From assembly GCF_018069705.1 (NCBI RefSeq), contig NZ_CP072943.1, positions 62,001 to 126,000 of the forward strand: a DNA stretch of 64,000 bases. Reading direction: 5' to 3'. This DNA is from Aminithiophilus ramosus (GTDB taxonomy: Bacteria; Synergistota; Synergistia; Synergistales; Aminithiophilaceae). Positions 7,231-12,484 of this stretch are shown one piece after another. The number at the start of each line of letters is the position of its first letter. Positions within the stretch are counted from its first letter, which is position 1. A model generated the notes under the pieces. It was not told the origin of the DNA. It did no database searches and saw nothing but the letters and a program-made list of their open reading frames with translations. The translations under genes were made by a program, and so were the position numbers.

Positions 7231-7279
7231 TCCACCCCCCGTCGATCGGGAAGCGGGCCTGTCTCTGACGTGACCTCTC

Positions 7280-8495
7280 TCAGCGGCTGCAGGGTCTGAG
7301 GGAGCGGCGGTAGATGGCCGCCACCGTCTCCTTCGGCGCCGGAGTGGGGGCCATGGCCAGAAGGCCGTCGAGGGAGGGCGTCGTCATGGCCAGATCCGTC
7401 AGGCGGTCGATGTCGCCCTCGCCGTAAGCCCTGATCTTCCAGCTTGTCGGGAACGCCGACGGAGGCGAGCCAGCGCTCCATGGCCCGGGCGGCCCGTTCC
7501 GATTCGGCCGGGAGGCCCTTGAGGTCCTCGACGAAGGGGGCCAGAAGGGAGGTGAGGACTTCGGGGCAGGCCGGGTAGATCTGGGCGATGACGGCCGGAA
7601 GAATCATGGACAGGCCCAGGCCGTGGGCCAGATCGGGCCTGACGGCCGAAAGGGGGTGTTCCAGGGCGTGGGTGAAGTGGAGCAGGCCGTTGTCGAAGGC
7701 GATTCCGGCGATGAGAGAGGCGTAGAGAAGGTGGTAGCGGGCCGTCAGATCACCGGGGTGGGCCAGGGCCTGAGGAAGGTAGGCGGCGACGAGGCGGGCC
7801 GTCTCCCGGGCCAGGAGAACCGTATAGGGCGAGGCGGCCTTGCTCGTGGCGGCCTCGATGACGTGATTGAGGGCGTCGATGGAGACGAAGCGCGTCTGGT
7901 CGGCCGAGAGGCCCGTCATGAGGGCCGGATCGTCGATGGCGTAGGCCGGGTAGATGCAGTCGTAGGCGATGGCCGGCTTGTAGTCCTTCTCGGGAAGGCT
8001 GACGACGGCGAAACGGTCCGCCTCCGTCCCCGTTCCGTGGGTGAGGTTGACGGCGACGACGGGCACGGCCCTGTCGGGGACGAAGCGCAGCTCGTAGAGG
8101 TCCCGGGCGTCCCTGTCGGGATACTGGAGCAGAATGGCGGCGCTCTTGGCGGCGTCGATGGGACTGCCTCCGCCGATGGCGACGACGGCCTGGGCCCCGA
8201 AGTCGCGGCCCATCTCGACGGCCTCGTCGACGCTGTCCACGGTGGGGTTGGGCGTGATCCGGTCGTAGAGGACGTGATCGACGCCGTATCGGTCGAAGGC
8301 GGCCCGGACGTGATCCCAGGCGCCGGTGCTCCTGTAGGAGCCCCGGCCCGTGACGCAGAGGACCTTGCCGATCCCCCTGCCGGAGAGGTCGGCCATGATG
8401 GCGTCCATCTTGGTGATGGCCCTCGCGCCGAGGTAGACCGTCGTCTTGGCCCGGATCGTGCGGATCTCATGGACGGGCATTTTGGAATCACACAC
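7280..8495 (-). pseudogene. Iron-containing alcohol dehydrogenase, frameshifted near its C-terminus
   Basis: The GTG at 8495 has AGAGGG 7-8 bases upstream. The first 350 residues are a clear group III (Fe-ADH) enzyme: the NAD-binding VVAIGGGSPIDAAK motif, the metal ligands in DALNHVIEA and in FTHALEHPLSAV, and LAHGLGLSMILPA. After KLEDQG the reading frame drifts into low-complexity sequence. The expected C-terminal tail (AYGEGDIDRLTDLAM and so on, ending with stop at 7280) is intact in the next frame. The 1216-base span equals 405 codons plus one base, so a single inserted base near 7436-7442 explains it. The enzyme would normally oxidise or reduce a short-chain alcohol or aldehyde with NAD(P). 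The broken tail lies in the helical domain, so activity is doubtful if the shift is real. Confidence 0.85.
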
Positions 8496-8807: not shown

Positions 8808-9614
8808 TCAGGGGAGGGAGAGGACGTGTCTTTCCAGGGCGAGGGCCACGCCGTCGTCGTCGTTGGAGGCGGTGACGATGGCGGCTCTTTCCCGGGCCAG
8901 AGGGGATCCGTTGGCCATGGCGACGCCCAGGCCGGCCCATTCGATCATGGTCAGGTCGTTCTCGCCGTCGCCGATGGCCATGACCTCTTCTCGTCCGAGG
9001 CCCATCGATCGGGCCAGAAAGGCCAGCGCCCGCCCCTTGTCGACGTCGAGGGGCACCACCTCCAGATAGCCCGGCTTGGAGCGGGGAAGGGAGAGCCGTC
9101 CGGCGAAGCGGGAGCGCATCTCCTCGGCGATGGAGACCATGGCGGTCGCGTCGTCGATGAGGAGCATTTTCGTCGGCTCCCCATCGAGGTCCCAGTAGGC
9201 GTCGCCGAGGGGGACGGCCTCGATGGCGGCCAGCTTCTCGTAGGCACGGGCGCGGTCGTCGTCGCGGCTTTCGACGTAGAGCTCGTCGTCGATGTAGGTC
9301 TGGACGTACCAGCCCCGACGACGGCAGAGGGCGAGGACGTCGGCGGCGAGACCGGCCTCGACGGTCCTGTGGCGGAGGGTACGGCCCGAGGCGGCCTCGC
9401 GGATGAGGCCGCCGTTGTAGGCGATGAGGGTGAGGTTGTCGCCCATGAGGGCGCCGTAGGGGACGATGGAGCGGAACATGCGTCCCGAGGCGACGGTGAC
9501 GACGACGCCTCGCCTCCGGCAGCCCTCGATGGCCTCGAGGGTGCGGGGACGGAGCGTGCCGTCGCTGTCGAGAAGGGTGTCGTCGAGATCGGCGGCGACC
9601 AGTCGGATCGTCAT
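8808..9614 (-). CDS. Cof-type HAD hydrolase, under a cobalamin riboswitch
   Basis: A 268-residue protein. The ATG at 9614 has AAGGAGA 6 bases upstream. Motif I is AADLDDTLLDSDGTL (residues 7-21), the late lysine is in the VDKGRALAFLA stretch and motif IV is GDGENDLTMIEWAG, so it belongs to the HAD IIB (Cof) phosphatase group with a C2 cap. These enzymes remove phosphate from sugar phosphates, pyridoxal phosphate or nucleotides; the substrate cannot be read from sequence. The unusual point is upstream: a cobalamin riboswitch and a terminator lie between 9632 and 9912 on the same strand, and this gene is the only one directly behind them. cobS and cobU lie 1.5-2.9 kb upstream, while no CobC-type alpha-ribazole phosphatase is present. 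A role in that dephosphorylation step is a hypothesis. Confidence 0.85.
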   Translation of the reverse strand: MTIRLVAADLDDTLLDSDGTLRPRTLEAIEGCRRRGVVVTVASGRMFRSIVPYGALMGDNLTLIAYNGGLIREAASGRTLRHRTVEAGLAADVLALCRRRGWYVQTYIDDELYVESRDDDRARAYEKLAAIEAVPLGDAYWDLDGEPTKMLLIDDATAMVSIAEEMRSRFAGRLSLPRSKPGYLEVVPLDVDKGRALAFLARSMGLGREEVMAIGDGENDLTMIEWAGLGVAMANGSPLARERAAIVTASNDDDGVALALERHVLSLP

Positions 9615-9631
9615 GGATGTCTCCTTTTTCG

Positions 9632-9672
9632 AAAAAAAGAAGGGGGCCGCAAGGGGAGGTATCCCGCGGCCC
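9632..9672 (-). terminator. Intrinsic terminator of the cobalamin riboswitch
   Basis: On the minus strand GGGCCGC pairs with GCGGCCC, followed by CCTTCTTTTTTT. It sits between the cobalamin aptamer and the Shine-Dalgarno of the HAD gene, the standard place for a riboswitch expression platform that works by premature termination. Confidence 0.8.
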
Positions 9673-9747
9673 GGAGGATGGGGAGATGCTGACTCCAGGC
9701 CGCCTTCAAGCACCCCAAGCCGCTCCCTCGAGCGGGGTTTTGAGGAA

Positions 9748-9912
9748 AACGCCTGCGGATCGGTCTCCTGGCTTCCGATCGTTCTACTCCCGCGCCTTCC
9801 CGGAGTGGGGATGCTCCAGTGGCTTGCTGCGGTTTCGTCCCGGTTACAGTGGCGGGGCCGCGCCGGACTTTCACCGGCTTCCCGTCATCCGCGGCGACCT
9901 GGTTCAGACTCA
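9748..9912 (-). promoter_or_regulatory. Cobalamin riboswitch
   Basis: The minus strand has the conserved parts of the adenosylcobalamin aptamer in order: GGGAAGCCGGTGAAAGTCCGG-like core, GGCCCCGCCACTGTAA, then AGCCAGGAGACC (the B12 box, at 9773-9762 on the plus strand numbering). The strands GCGGAT (near 9892-9887) and ATCCGC (near 9760-9755) can close the structure. A terminator follows and then the HAD phosphatase gene. In the family, cobalamin binding represses the downstream gene. The 5' end touches the stop of the HD-GYP gene upstream, so the leader must start from a promoter inside or just before that gene end. Confidence 0.93.
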
Positions 9913-9914
9913 CT

Positions 9915-11081
9915 TTACACCTTGGCGGCCCCTTTTTCAACGCCCTCTTTTCCCCCTTTTTCGCGCTCTTTTTCCGCCTCGTCGGAGCCGTCCCCTTCGG
10001 GCTCTCCGTCGAGGACGGCTCCGATCTCCAGGTCGGGATACTGCCTCATGTCGAGGGTCAGGGGGCGGCTGAGGGGGCCCGTCCGCTCGTGGCGGACGAT
10101 GCGGACCTGAGGGCGCAGGGTGTCGTCGACGAAGCAGTCGGTGACCATGCCGATGTGGCCCGTGGAGAGGTAGAGCCAGGTCCCGATGGGATAGGGGGTG
10201 ACGATTTTCTGGTAGATGTCGACGACGGCTGGGTCGAAGAGGCCTCCCGACTCGGCGGTGATCTGGGCGAAGGCCTCGTAGGGGCGCAGGGCCTCCCGCC
10301 AGGGGCGGCGCGAGACGAGGGCGTCGTGGACGTCGGCGACGGCGACGATGCGGCTGAAGAGGTGGATCGCCTCGCCTTTCAGGCCCGACGGGTAGCCGCT
10401 GCCGTTCCATCTCTCCTGATGCTGGAGGGTGACGATGCGTGCCGTGGGCCAGACGTTGCCGTAGCCCTCGAGAAGCTCCCATCCGAAGCGGGGGTAGTGG
10501 TAGAGAAGTTCCCGCTCCTCGCGGCTCAGGGGGCCCGACCGGGTGAGGATCCGGCTGGGGATGAAGGCCTTGCCGATGCCGGCCAGAAGGGCACCCAGGC
10601 CGAGGTTGTGCAGCTGCGCCTCGGGGAGGGCCATCCTCCGGCCGATCATCATGGAGAGGATCATGGTCTGGACGCTGTGCTGGTAGGAGTAGCCGTCGTT
10701 GCTGCGGACGTCGAGGAGGTGGACGACGAGGTCGGGCTGGCTGAGGACTTCGTCGAGGACGGAGCGGACGACGTCGAAGAGCTGGTCGAAGTCGGCGACG
10801 AGGGCGGCCTTGGTGCTGTTCCGGGTGGCGTCCTCGTAGGTCCGATGGAGTTCCCTGATGGCCCTTCCCAGGTTCCGGTGGCTGATGAGGGGACGCACCT
10901 CCAGATCGGGAAAGCGATCGTCCCGGACGTAGACGAAGGGGACCTCCATCCGGTCCAGCATGCCGACGAGTCTCTCGTTCAGCTGAATCCCCTCGGCAAG
11001 CAGAAGGGTTCCCTTTTCCGAGTAGAGGGGACGGGCGAGAATCATCTGAGGTTTGAGGGAGCGGGTATAGACGAGCTTCAT
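9915..11081 (-). CDS. HD-GYP-type domain protein with degenerate metal site
   Basis: A 388-residue cytoplasmic protein with no membrane helix. The ATG at 11081 has GGAGGG upstream. The fold markers of HD-GYP phosphodiesterases are present in order: QHSVQTMILSMMIG, LLAGIGKAFIP, YHYPRFGWELL and QERWNGSGYPSGLKGE. The defining HD pair in the second motif (normally LLHDIGK) is replaced by AG, and the usual HHE before the GYP loop reads QHQE. Several metal ligands of a cyclic-di-GMP phosphodiesterase are therefore missing, so a catalytic role is doubtful and a binding or scaffolding role more likely. The C-terminus (about 30 residues) is a charged Glu/Lys/Gly-rich tail. The stop abuts the cobalamin riboswitch. 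Confidence 0.82.
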   Translation of the reverse strand: MKLVYTRSLKPQMILARPLYSEKGTLLLAEGIQLNERLVGMLDRMEVPFVYVRDDRFPDLEVRPLISHRNLGRAIRELHRTYEDATRNSTKAALVADFDQLFDVVRSVLDEVLSQPDLVVHLLDVRSNDGYSYQHSVQTMILSMMIGRRMALPEAQLHNLGLGALLAGIGKAFIPSRILTRSGPLSREERELLYHYPRFGWELLEGYGNVWPTARIVTLQHQERWNGSGYPSGLKGEAIHLFSRIVAVADVHDALVSRRPWREALRPYEAFAQITAESGGLFDPAVVDIYQKIVTPYPIGTWLYLSTGHIGMVTDCFVDDTLRPQVRIVRHERTGPLSRPLTLDMRQYPDLEIGAVLDGEPEGDGSDEAEKEREKGGKEGVEKGAAKV

Positions 11082-11166: not shown

Positions 11167-11925
11167 TCATGTGAGGGCGGCGCAGGACAGGAGAGCCGCC
11201 ACCTCTCCGGCCACTTCGCAGGCGCCCAGGACGTCTCCGTTCGTGCCGCCCAGGCGTTTTTCGGCGACGGCGACGAGGCCGGAGGCGACGAGGGAGGCGG
11301 CCAGGAGGGAGGCGAGCCAGAGCTGCGGCGCCAGAGGGAGGAAGAGGCCTGCCGCCGTCAGGGCCAGGAGGAGGTGCCTCGTGGAGAAGGAGAGGACGAT
11401 CTCCCGTCCCAGCCCGGACTCCCAGGGGTAGGTCCCCAGACGGGCGGCCAGGCAGAGGCCGAAACGCCCCGCCAGGGCGGCCATGAAGAGGGCCCTCGCC
11501 GCCTCGAGGGCCTCCATGGAGGCGACGAGGGAGGTCCAGAGGCCCAGGGCGACGACGAGGGCCACGGCGCCGAAGCCGCCGAGACGGCTGTCCTTCATGA
11601 CGGCCCTCATGGCCTCTCCCTTCTTGTGACTTCCCAGCCCGTCGGCCAGGTCGGAGAAACCGTCGAGATGGAGGCTCCAGCCGCAGAGGATGTAGCCGGC
11701 CAGGGCGATCCAGGCGGCCCCCGAGCCCCCGACGAGGGGACGGGCCAGGAGGTGGAGGGCGGCCGAGAGGGCGCCCAGGAGGGCGCCGACGAAGGGGGCC
11801 AGAGGCAGGGCGTCGGCCAGGGATAGGGGTTCCCGGGGCCAGAGGCGGCGAGGGACGGGCAGGGCCGTCAGGAAGCCCAGGAGGAGGAAAAGGCTCTTGT
11901 CCGGGCGGGTCCTCTCAGCGGCCAT
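11167..11925 (-). CDS. cobS: Adenosylcobinamide-GDP ribazoletransferase CobS
   Basis: A 252-residue integral membrane enzyme with about six hydrophobic segments. The family motifs are clear: LDGFSDLADGLGS near residue 88, MRAVMKDSRLGGFGA near 105-120, and GGTNGDVLGACEV near the C-terminus. CobS joins adenosylcobinamide-GDP with alpha-ribazole (or its phosphate) to complete the nucleotide loop of cobalamin. It overlaps cobU by 11 bases, so the two form an operon and act in consecutive steps. Confidence 0.95.
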   Translation of the reverse strand: MAAERTRPDKSLFLLLGFLTALPVPRRLWPREPLSLADALPLAPFVGALLGALSAALHLLARPLVGGSGAAWIALAGYILCGWSLHLDGFSDLADGLGSHKKGEAMRAVMKDSRLGGFGAVALVVALGLWTSLVASMEALEAARALFMAALAGRFGLCLAARLGTYPWESGLGREIVLSFSTRHLLLALTAAGLFLPLAPQLWLASLLAASLVASGLVAVAEKRLGGTNGDVLGACEVAGEVAALLSCAALT

Positions 11926-12484
11926 CGTCGAGGCCTCCCTTGAGGACCAGGGGCAGCCCGGCGACGACGAGAAGAGCCGTCTCGGCCCTGGCGGCGCCGA
12001 TCTGGTTGGCCCTTCCCTGAAGGTCGCGGAAGCGCCGTCCCATGCGGTTGGGAGGTACGAGATCCATGCCCACCTCGTTGGAGACGACGATGAAGCGCTC
12101 CGCCTTCCCGGCGGCGTCGAAAAGGGCTTCGACGGAGGCCAGGATCTTCCGTTCCCCCTCGTGCCAGAGGGTCTCGTCGTCGGATTCGACGGCAGGATCG
12201 GCCAGAAAGAGGCGCGAGAGCCAGACGGTGAGGCAGTCCATGAGGACCACCCCTTCCAGTCCTTCCACGAAGGCCGGAAGGGCCTGGGGCTCCCCCTCCC
12301 AGGTCCGCCACTCTCGGGGGCGGCTCGCGCGGTGGAGGTCGATTCGCCGGGCCATCTCGGCGTCGCCCGCCTCGGCCGTGGCGATGTAGGTCACGTCGGA
12401 GCCGCCCCAACGGAGGGCCAGAGACTCGCCGAGGCGGCTTTTCCCGCTGCGGGCCCCGCCGAGGAGGAAGATTCTCTCTCCCAA
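11915..12484 (-). CDS. cobU: Adenosylcobinamide kinase / guanylyltransferase CobU
   Basis: A 189-residue protein, normal for CobU/CobP. The TTG at 12484 has AAGGTG 8 bases upstream; no ATG or GTG lies between it and the P-loop. GGARSGKSR (residues 9-17) is the P-loop, the TWEGEPQALP region includes the guanylylation neighbourhood and MDCLTVWLS is the Walker B-like stretch. The enzyme phosphorylates adenosylcobinamide and transfers GMP to it, giving the substrate of CobS, whose gene overlaps the 3' end. A promoter with good spacing sits just upstream. No riboswitch is visible in front of this gene, in contrast to the HAD gene at 8.8 kb. Confidence 0.95.
   Translation of the reverse strand: MGERIFLLGGARSGKSRLGESLALRWGGSDVTYIATAEAGDAEMARRIDLHRASRPREWRTWEGEPQALPAFVEGLEGVVLMDCLTVWLSRLFLADPAVESDDETLWHEGERKILASVEALFDAAGKAERFIVVSNEVGMDLVPPNRMGRRFRDLQGRANQIGAARAETALLVVAGLPLVLKGGLDDGR

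Follow-up and report, generated by a model that had tools for sequence, protein, structure and literature searches.

In this study, we examined a window of 64,000 nucleotides, positions 62001-126000 of a single-contig Synergistota genome of 3.11 Mb, for the surroundings of a cobalamin riboswitch; unless a genome is named, coordinates below are those of the window. The aptamer (9741-9907, minus strand) matches RF00174 over model positions 1-189 of 189 with 103.9 bits (E 6e-25; gathering cut-off 31.5 bits) and contains an exact AGCCAGGAGACC box, so that a full-length covariance-model match and the B12 box both place it in this class. It is the single Rfam match across the whole window and the highest scoring of the nine cobalamin aptamers of the genome. 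The first minus-strand gene after it (8808-9614, ATG at 9614) encodes a HAD-IIB phosphatase of 268 aa (P0001), which belongs to the Cof type with a TIGR00099 score of 176.1 bits against a curated cut-off of 137. The preliminary description had placed a cobalamin aptamer with its box directly before a Cof-type HAD gene, and both models bear this out. On the same strand and upstream of the aptamer lie an HD-GYP domain protein (9915-11081), cobS (cobamide synthase, 11167-11925; PF02654, 138.6 bits) and, overlapping cobS, cobU (11915-12484), which was named from sequence and clusters with CobU across the phylum. The order cobS, HD-GYP, HAD is also found in two further genomes, G022 and G123. A sigma-70-like promoter, TTGAAA-17-TAAAGT (9912-9940, minus), is predicted immediately 5' of the aptamer by consensus match only, with nine of 12 positions, and overlaps the end of the HD-GYP gene. 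For cobU and cobS themselves a plain promoter and no riboswitch had been described; the Rfam search of the window indeed found no riboswitch before them, but the promoter is unproven, since a consensus scan gave no sigma-70-like site before cobU. Downstream of the HAD gene, after 327 bp and on the same strand, follows an iron-type alcohol dehydrogenase gene (7270-8478, minus), which, compared with its counterpart in the genome of the same species (G021), has an extra A near 7427 and hence a frameshift near the gene end. As a side observation, the cobU-cobS locus repeatedly carries an HD-GYP gene in families f1, f3, f4 and f8, placed on one or the other side of cobUS (9915-11081 here; L213, L214, L217, L247), and a link between c-di-GMP signalling and B12 assembly is possible.

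Directly 3' of the aptamer sits a hairpin, CCGCTC-GAGG-GAGCGG (9720-9736, minus), identical in three genomes, which may by analogy be named P13-like; a kissing loop between L5 and this hairpin, inspected by eye, was not convincing in both species. An antiterminator (9666-9703, minus) follows, with 11 pairs between GCGGCCTGGAG (9703-9693) and CTCCGGGCCGC (9676-9666), and an intrinsic terminator (9632-9672, minus), in which GGGCCGC (9672-9666) pairs with GCGGCCC (9650-9644) ahead of TTTTTTT (9638-9632). The 5' arm of the terminator is also used by the antiterminator, which renders the two stems mutually exclusive; this arrangement is conserved in three genomes, both antiterminator arms are unchanged in G021 and in G022, a genome of the same genus, and the two folds lie about 3 kcal/mol apart. 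The terminator had been called clean, which fits this strain best, where GC stem and T7 are present 5' of the Shine-Dalgarno sequence; in G021 and G022 the U-run is eroded. A simple terminator scan with loops of 3-8 bases did not report it, probably because its loop exceeds this range. The U-run is moreover able to pair with the Shine-Dalgarno sequence (AAAGGAG, 9627-9621) in a predicted hairpin (9621-9638, minus), and such a closing hairpin is predicted, with different sequences, in all three genomes. Given the weaker U-run in the two relatives and the hairpin predicted in all three, control may be exerted by termination, by translation, or by both. Riboswitches of this class usually act by repression in response to cobamide, and we infer the same direction here: at scarce cobamide the leader would form the antiterminator and the phosphatase would be expressed, while cobamide on the aptamer would leave the terminator to form and/or the Shine-Dalgarno sequence closed, so that expression would fall. 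The HAD gene would constitute a transcription unit of its own in this genus.

The combination of riboswitch and HAD gene recurred within the genus and, among the more distant homologues examined, nowhere beyond it. The aptamer is conserved in G021, and in G022 aptamer and expression platform are kept in front of a HAD with 73% identity, followed downstream by a NapH-like ferredoxin gene. G022 (82% complete) carries three B12 riboswitches, before the cbi operon, a BtuB-like receptor gene and the HAD gene only. In a further genome of the genus, G023, no HAD was found, but its contig ends inside cobS, which may account for the absence. Apart from G182 of family f10, where a riboswitch precedes cobT, none of the riboswitch places listed outside the genus adjoins a HAD or cobS gene, and no riboswitch lies near the 12 closest HAD homologues outside the phylum. 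The riboswitch before the HAD therefore seems to be peculiar to this genus.

Other aptamers of the genome precede genes of different kinds. A tandem pair (G000:C1:920246-920408 and 920550-920712; L096 8247-8713, minus) lies before genes for aconitase, NADP-isocitrate dehydrogenase and citrate lyase, and a tandem pair also stands before the aconitase gene in G023 (G023:C60:93009-93471); the cluster may serve a way of breaking down glutamate that needs no B12 and is switched off by it. Two aptamers (G000:C1:2629368-2629557 and 2633680-2633873; L095, minus) precede a PduB microcompartment shell/glycyl-radical enzyme cluster and a second such enzyme, and, since a glycyl-radical enzyme works independently of B12, its place behind a B12 switch suggests that isozymes are exchanged. 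One (G000:C1:2365809-2365976; L097) is found before the genes of methylmalonyl-CoA mutase, themselves B12-dependent, as is a riboswitch before the mutase gene in G023 (L176), and one (G000:C1:1102666-1102826; L099) before a periplasmic binding-protein gene that is followed by insertion-sequence-like genes.

The phosphatase itself is 98% identical to its counterpart in Synergistota bacterium L-13 (CP074691.1). In an alignment of 50 sequences the residues D9, D11, T13, K193, D216 and D220, which make up DxDxT, the lysine and GDxxxD, are invariant, and judged by this alignment the active site is intact. The predicted structure (pLDDT 96) is that of a plain Cof-type HAD with a TM-score of about 0.9 to 4dwo and to YidA 1rkq, and the nearest solved structures are HADs of the sugar-phosphatase type. 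The last phosphate in B12 assembly is usually removed by CobC, which is unrelated to HAD. P0001 lacks membership in CobC (TIGR03162; histidine phosphatase fold, RHG motif), and only function could be common to the two.

To place the enzyme in the pathway, we matched the positions of HAD homologues against those of cobS in 141 cobS-bearing Synergistota genomes. In 43 of them, from three families (f3, 6/6; f8, 34/47; f1, 3/4), cobS has a HAD homologue downstream on its own strand, at a distance of 17-201 bp in 38 genomes and of 1.3-1.6 kb in the other 5; the HD-GYP gene occupies the larger gap in our genome, G021, G022 and G123. Where f8 genomes with the pair were examined, the prevailing order is cobU-cobS-HAD-metF-metH (metF and metH named by eye from sequence), and in several cobU, cobS and HAD overlap by 4 bp. 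In several of these f8 operons (L215, L218 and others), metF and metH have between them a 234-aa gene with no NCBIfam match. The operon of family f3 reads HD-GYP-cobT-cobU-cobS-HAD, where cobT is of the TIGR00303 type (299 bits). Activation, guanylylation and condensation are thus covered, which leaves the phosphatase as the sole late step, and the HAD sits there. Family f5 shows cobS-cobU-HAD in 13 of the 21 genomes examined with a HAD that forms a separate clade (support 100), and therefore probably arose from an independent recruitment. In G182 (f10) and in G117 and G118 (f6), a CobC-type histidine phosphatase follows cobS directly. The occurrence of either a HAD or a CobC-type enzyme in one slot is, as far as gene order tells, the pattern of a non-orthologous displacement of CobC. 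In E. coli, CobS recruits CobC, and overproduced CobS is toxic unless CobC is overproduced too (PMC8749415), which would explain why a phosphatase is coupled to cobS.

Of the remaining pathway, this genome has cbiK-btuCDF-cbi genes up to cbiP, preceded by a riboswitch, as well as cobD-cbiB-cbiA at about 796-799 kb (names partly by eye in both cases), and a complete pathway is expected, with an AdoCba-5'-phosphate phosphatase as its final step. A search for canonical CobT (PF02277) gave no hit in this genome, and 42 of the 43 genomes that have the cobS-HAD pair lack it; CobT of the TIGR00303 type did not turn up in the roughly half of this genome searched for it. A tie between the HAD and loss of CobT was dropped, since TIGR00303 CobT is encoded in the same operon in f3 and is present in G163, too. 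An AIR-synthase-like gene (L096:10251-11249), considered as alpha-ribazole kinase, gave weak NCBIfam matches, to HypE, SelD and ThiL.

Because of the conserved gene order and the B12 regulation, we consider it probable, with some reserve, that the HAD is the cobamide-5'-phosphate or alpha-ribazole-phosphate phosphatase of nucleotide-loop assembly. It would remove the 5'-phosphate left by CobS, converting adenosylcobamide-5'-phosphate to adenosylcobamide, would possibly act on alpha-ribazole phosphate as well, and would work in place of CobC or beside it. That a HAD could fill the CobC step had been proposed from the locus alone, and the cobS-HAD order in three families, the second HAD clade in a fourth and CobC-type enzymes in two others strengthen this proposal, but for this genus it is weakened by a CobC-clade enzyme elsewhere in the genome. 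The main doubts, apart from this coexisting enzyme, are that HADs are kept where no cobS was detected and that the family is promiscuous.

The earlier statement that CobC is not visible holds for the window, but not for the genome as a whole, which encodes five histidine phosphatases (from six matches, since one gene is split over two of them). Model matches and context describe one as PspA-like beside serA, one as widespread in the phylum with or without cobS, one as adjoining a dihydrolipoamide-dehydrogenase-like gene and one as of the phosphoglycerate mutase type. The fifth (G000:C1:412253-412858) belongs to the CobC clade: on the CobC equivalog model PRK15004 it scores highest among the four histidine phosphatases tested, with 139 bits (cut-off 250), and the protein groups with support of 100/99 with enzymes near cobS in families f5 and f7, one of which adjoins a BtuR/CobA-like adenosyltransferase gene. 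A CobC-clade enzyme is present in 4/4 genomes of the genus. This enzyme could accordingly be the CobC of the genus, with the HAD acting on another B12- or flavin-linked phosphate, for instance in lower-ligand precursor metabolism or salvage, hence its B12 control. FMN is a substrate of E. coli CobC itself (PMC13389410), and the f5 HAD also matches, weakly and in second place, a model of a riboflavin-pathway phosphatase (83 bits against a cut-off of 220). The gene at 412253-412858, however, resides among XdhC-, nucleotidyltransferase- and FTCD-like genes, a molybdenum-enzyme cluster, with no riboswitch before it in the genome scan and no B12 gene recognised nearby, while the phosphatase coupled to cobS is the HAD. 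In family f3 no CobC-clade enzyme was found at the threshold used, so that the case for a stand-in is cleanest there. We therefore regard such a division of labour as unlikely, albeit deserving serious attention.

The distribution of both enzymes differs between families. Among the f8 genomes with a cobS-HAD pair, 18/34 also have a weak match to the CobC-clade enzyme. In f5 this enzyme was detected at the threshold used in 0/13 genomes with the HAD and in 4/8 without it, where Fisher's p of about 0.012 is only indicative, as the genomes are related. TIGR03162 was discarded as a marker of CobC, since its f3 matches above or near cut-off are the phylum-wide histidine phosphatase, present also without cobS. 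Taken together, the HAD is likely to stand in for CobC in relatives like those of family f3; this is less certain in the present genus, which may possess both a CobC and the HAD.

A second explanation treats the HAD as a general sugar or metabolite phosphatase, which has inherited its cobUS and riboswitch context with the operon and has no specific role in B12 metabolism. The Cof family is promiscuous, and the closest solved structures are, as described above, of the sugar-phosphatase type. The HAD is also kept in G020, G176 and G160, where cobS was undetected, and lies away from cobS in several f8 genomes. None of 77 HAD homologues outside the phylum has cobS or cobU nearby (L040, which has both, is from Synergistota and hence outside this set); the closest belong to Sporomusaceae, whose loci lack both cobU and cobS in the vicinity and, on inspection by eye, any recognisable B12 gene. 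Hitch-hiking can hardly account for a conserved aptamer and platform of the gene's own, for the tight coupling in many genera and for the occupation of this slot by a further HAD clade, which renders a general phosphatase improbable. That the riboswitch serves another gene, with the HAD merely first in the unit, is suggested by the same-strand genes downstream in both this genome and G022 but is highly implausible, since these genes differ (the dehydrogenase here, the NapH-like ferredoxin gene there) while the riboswitch-HAD pair is kept, and since the dehydrogenase is frameshifted and separated by the 327-bp gap.

We propose a model in which a Cof-type HAD would complete nucleotide-loop assembly beside CobS. 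In its broader form, with Cof-type HADs as working cobamide-5'-phosphate phosphatases in much of Synergistota, having entered the cobS operon on at least two occasions and come under a riboswitch of their own in one genus, we give the model an even chance. Reconstructions of B12 assembly from genomes are repeatedly left incomplete at CobC. If the model is true, the HAD closes this gap in a large part of a phylum whose members are anaerobes that ferment amino acids, provides a gene-order rule, a phosphatase beside cobS, by which others could be found, and narrows the enzymes worth assaying to a few. The prediction lends itself to direct testing through the copy under B12 control.

Compared to known systems, the HAD would share with CobC (EC 3.1.3.73, TIGR03162) the expected chemistry, and it shares the slot after cobS, which a CobC-type enzyme takes in G182, G117 and G118, but the folds are unrelated, CobC being a histidine phosphatase and the HAD an aspartate-based, metal-dependent enzyme. 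CobZ of Methanosarcina, a known non-orthologous replacement cited in PMC3223730, is likewise an unrelated phosphatase in CobC's place; compared by description, M. acetivorans CobZ (MA0940) has 183 aa and is not described as a HAD in that paper, while the present HAD has 268 aa. CblZ and CblXY are other proposed replacements of CobC (PMC8620254). In fold, catalytic residues and length, P0001 resembles the Cof-type HAD-IIB structures YidA 1rkq, TM0651 1nf2 and BT 3niw/4dwo. To our knowledge, none of these takes part in B12 assembly or stands under a B12 riboswitch, and we found no report of a HAD as target of a cobalamin riboswitch in the searchable literature. The riboswitch itself, with a full-length aptamer, B12 box and expression platform, conforms to its class, whereas the gene that it would regulate is unusual.
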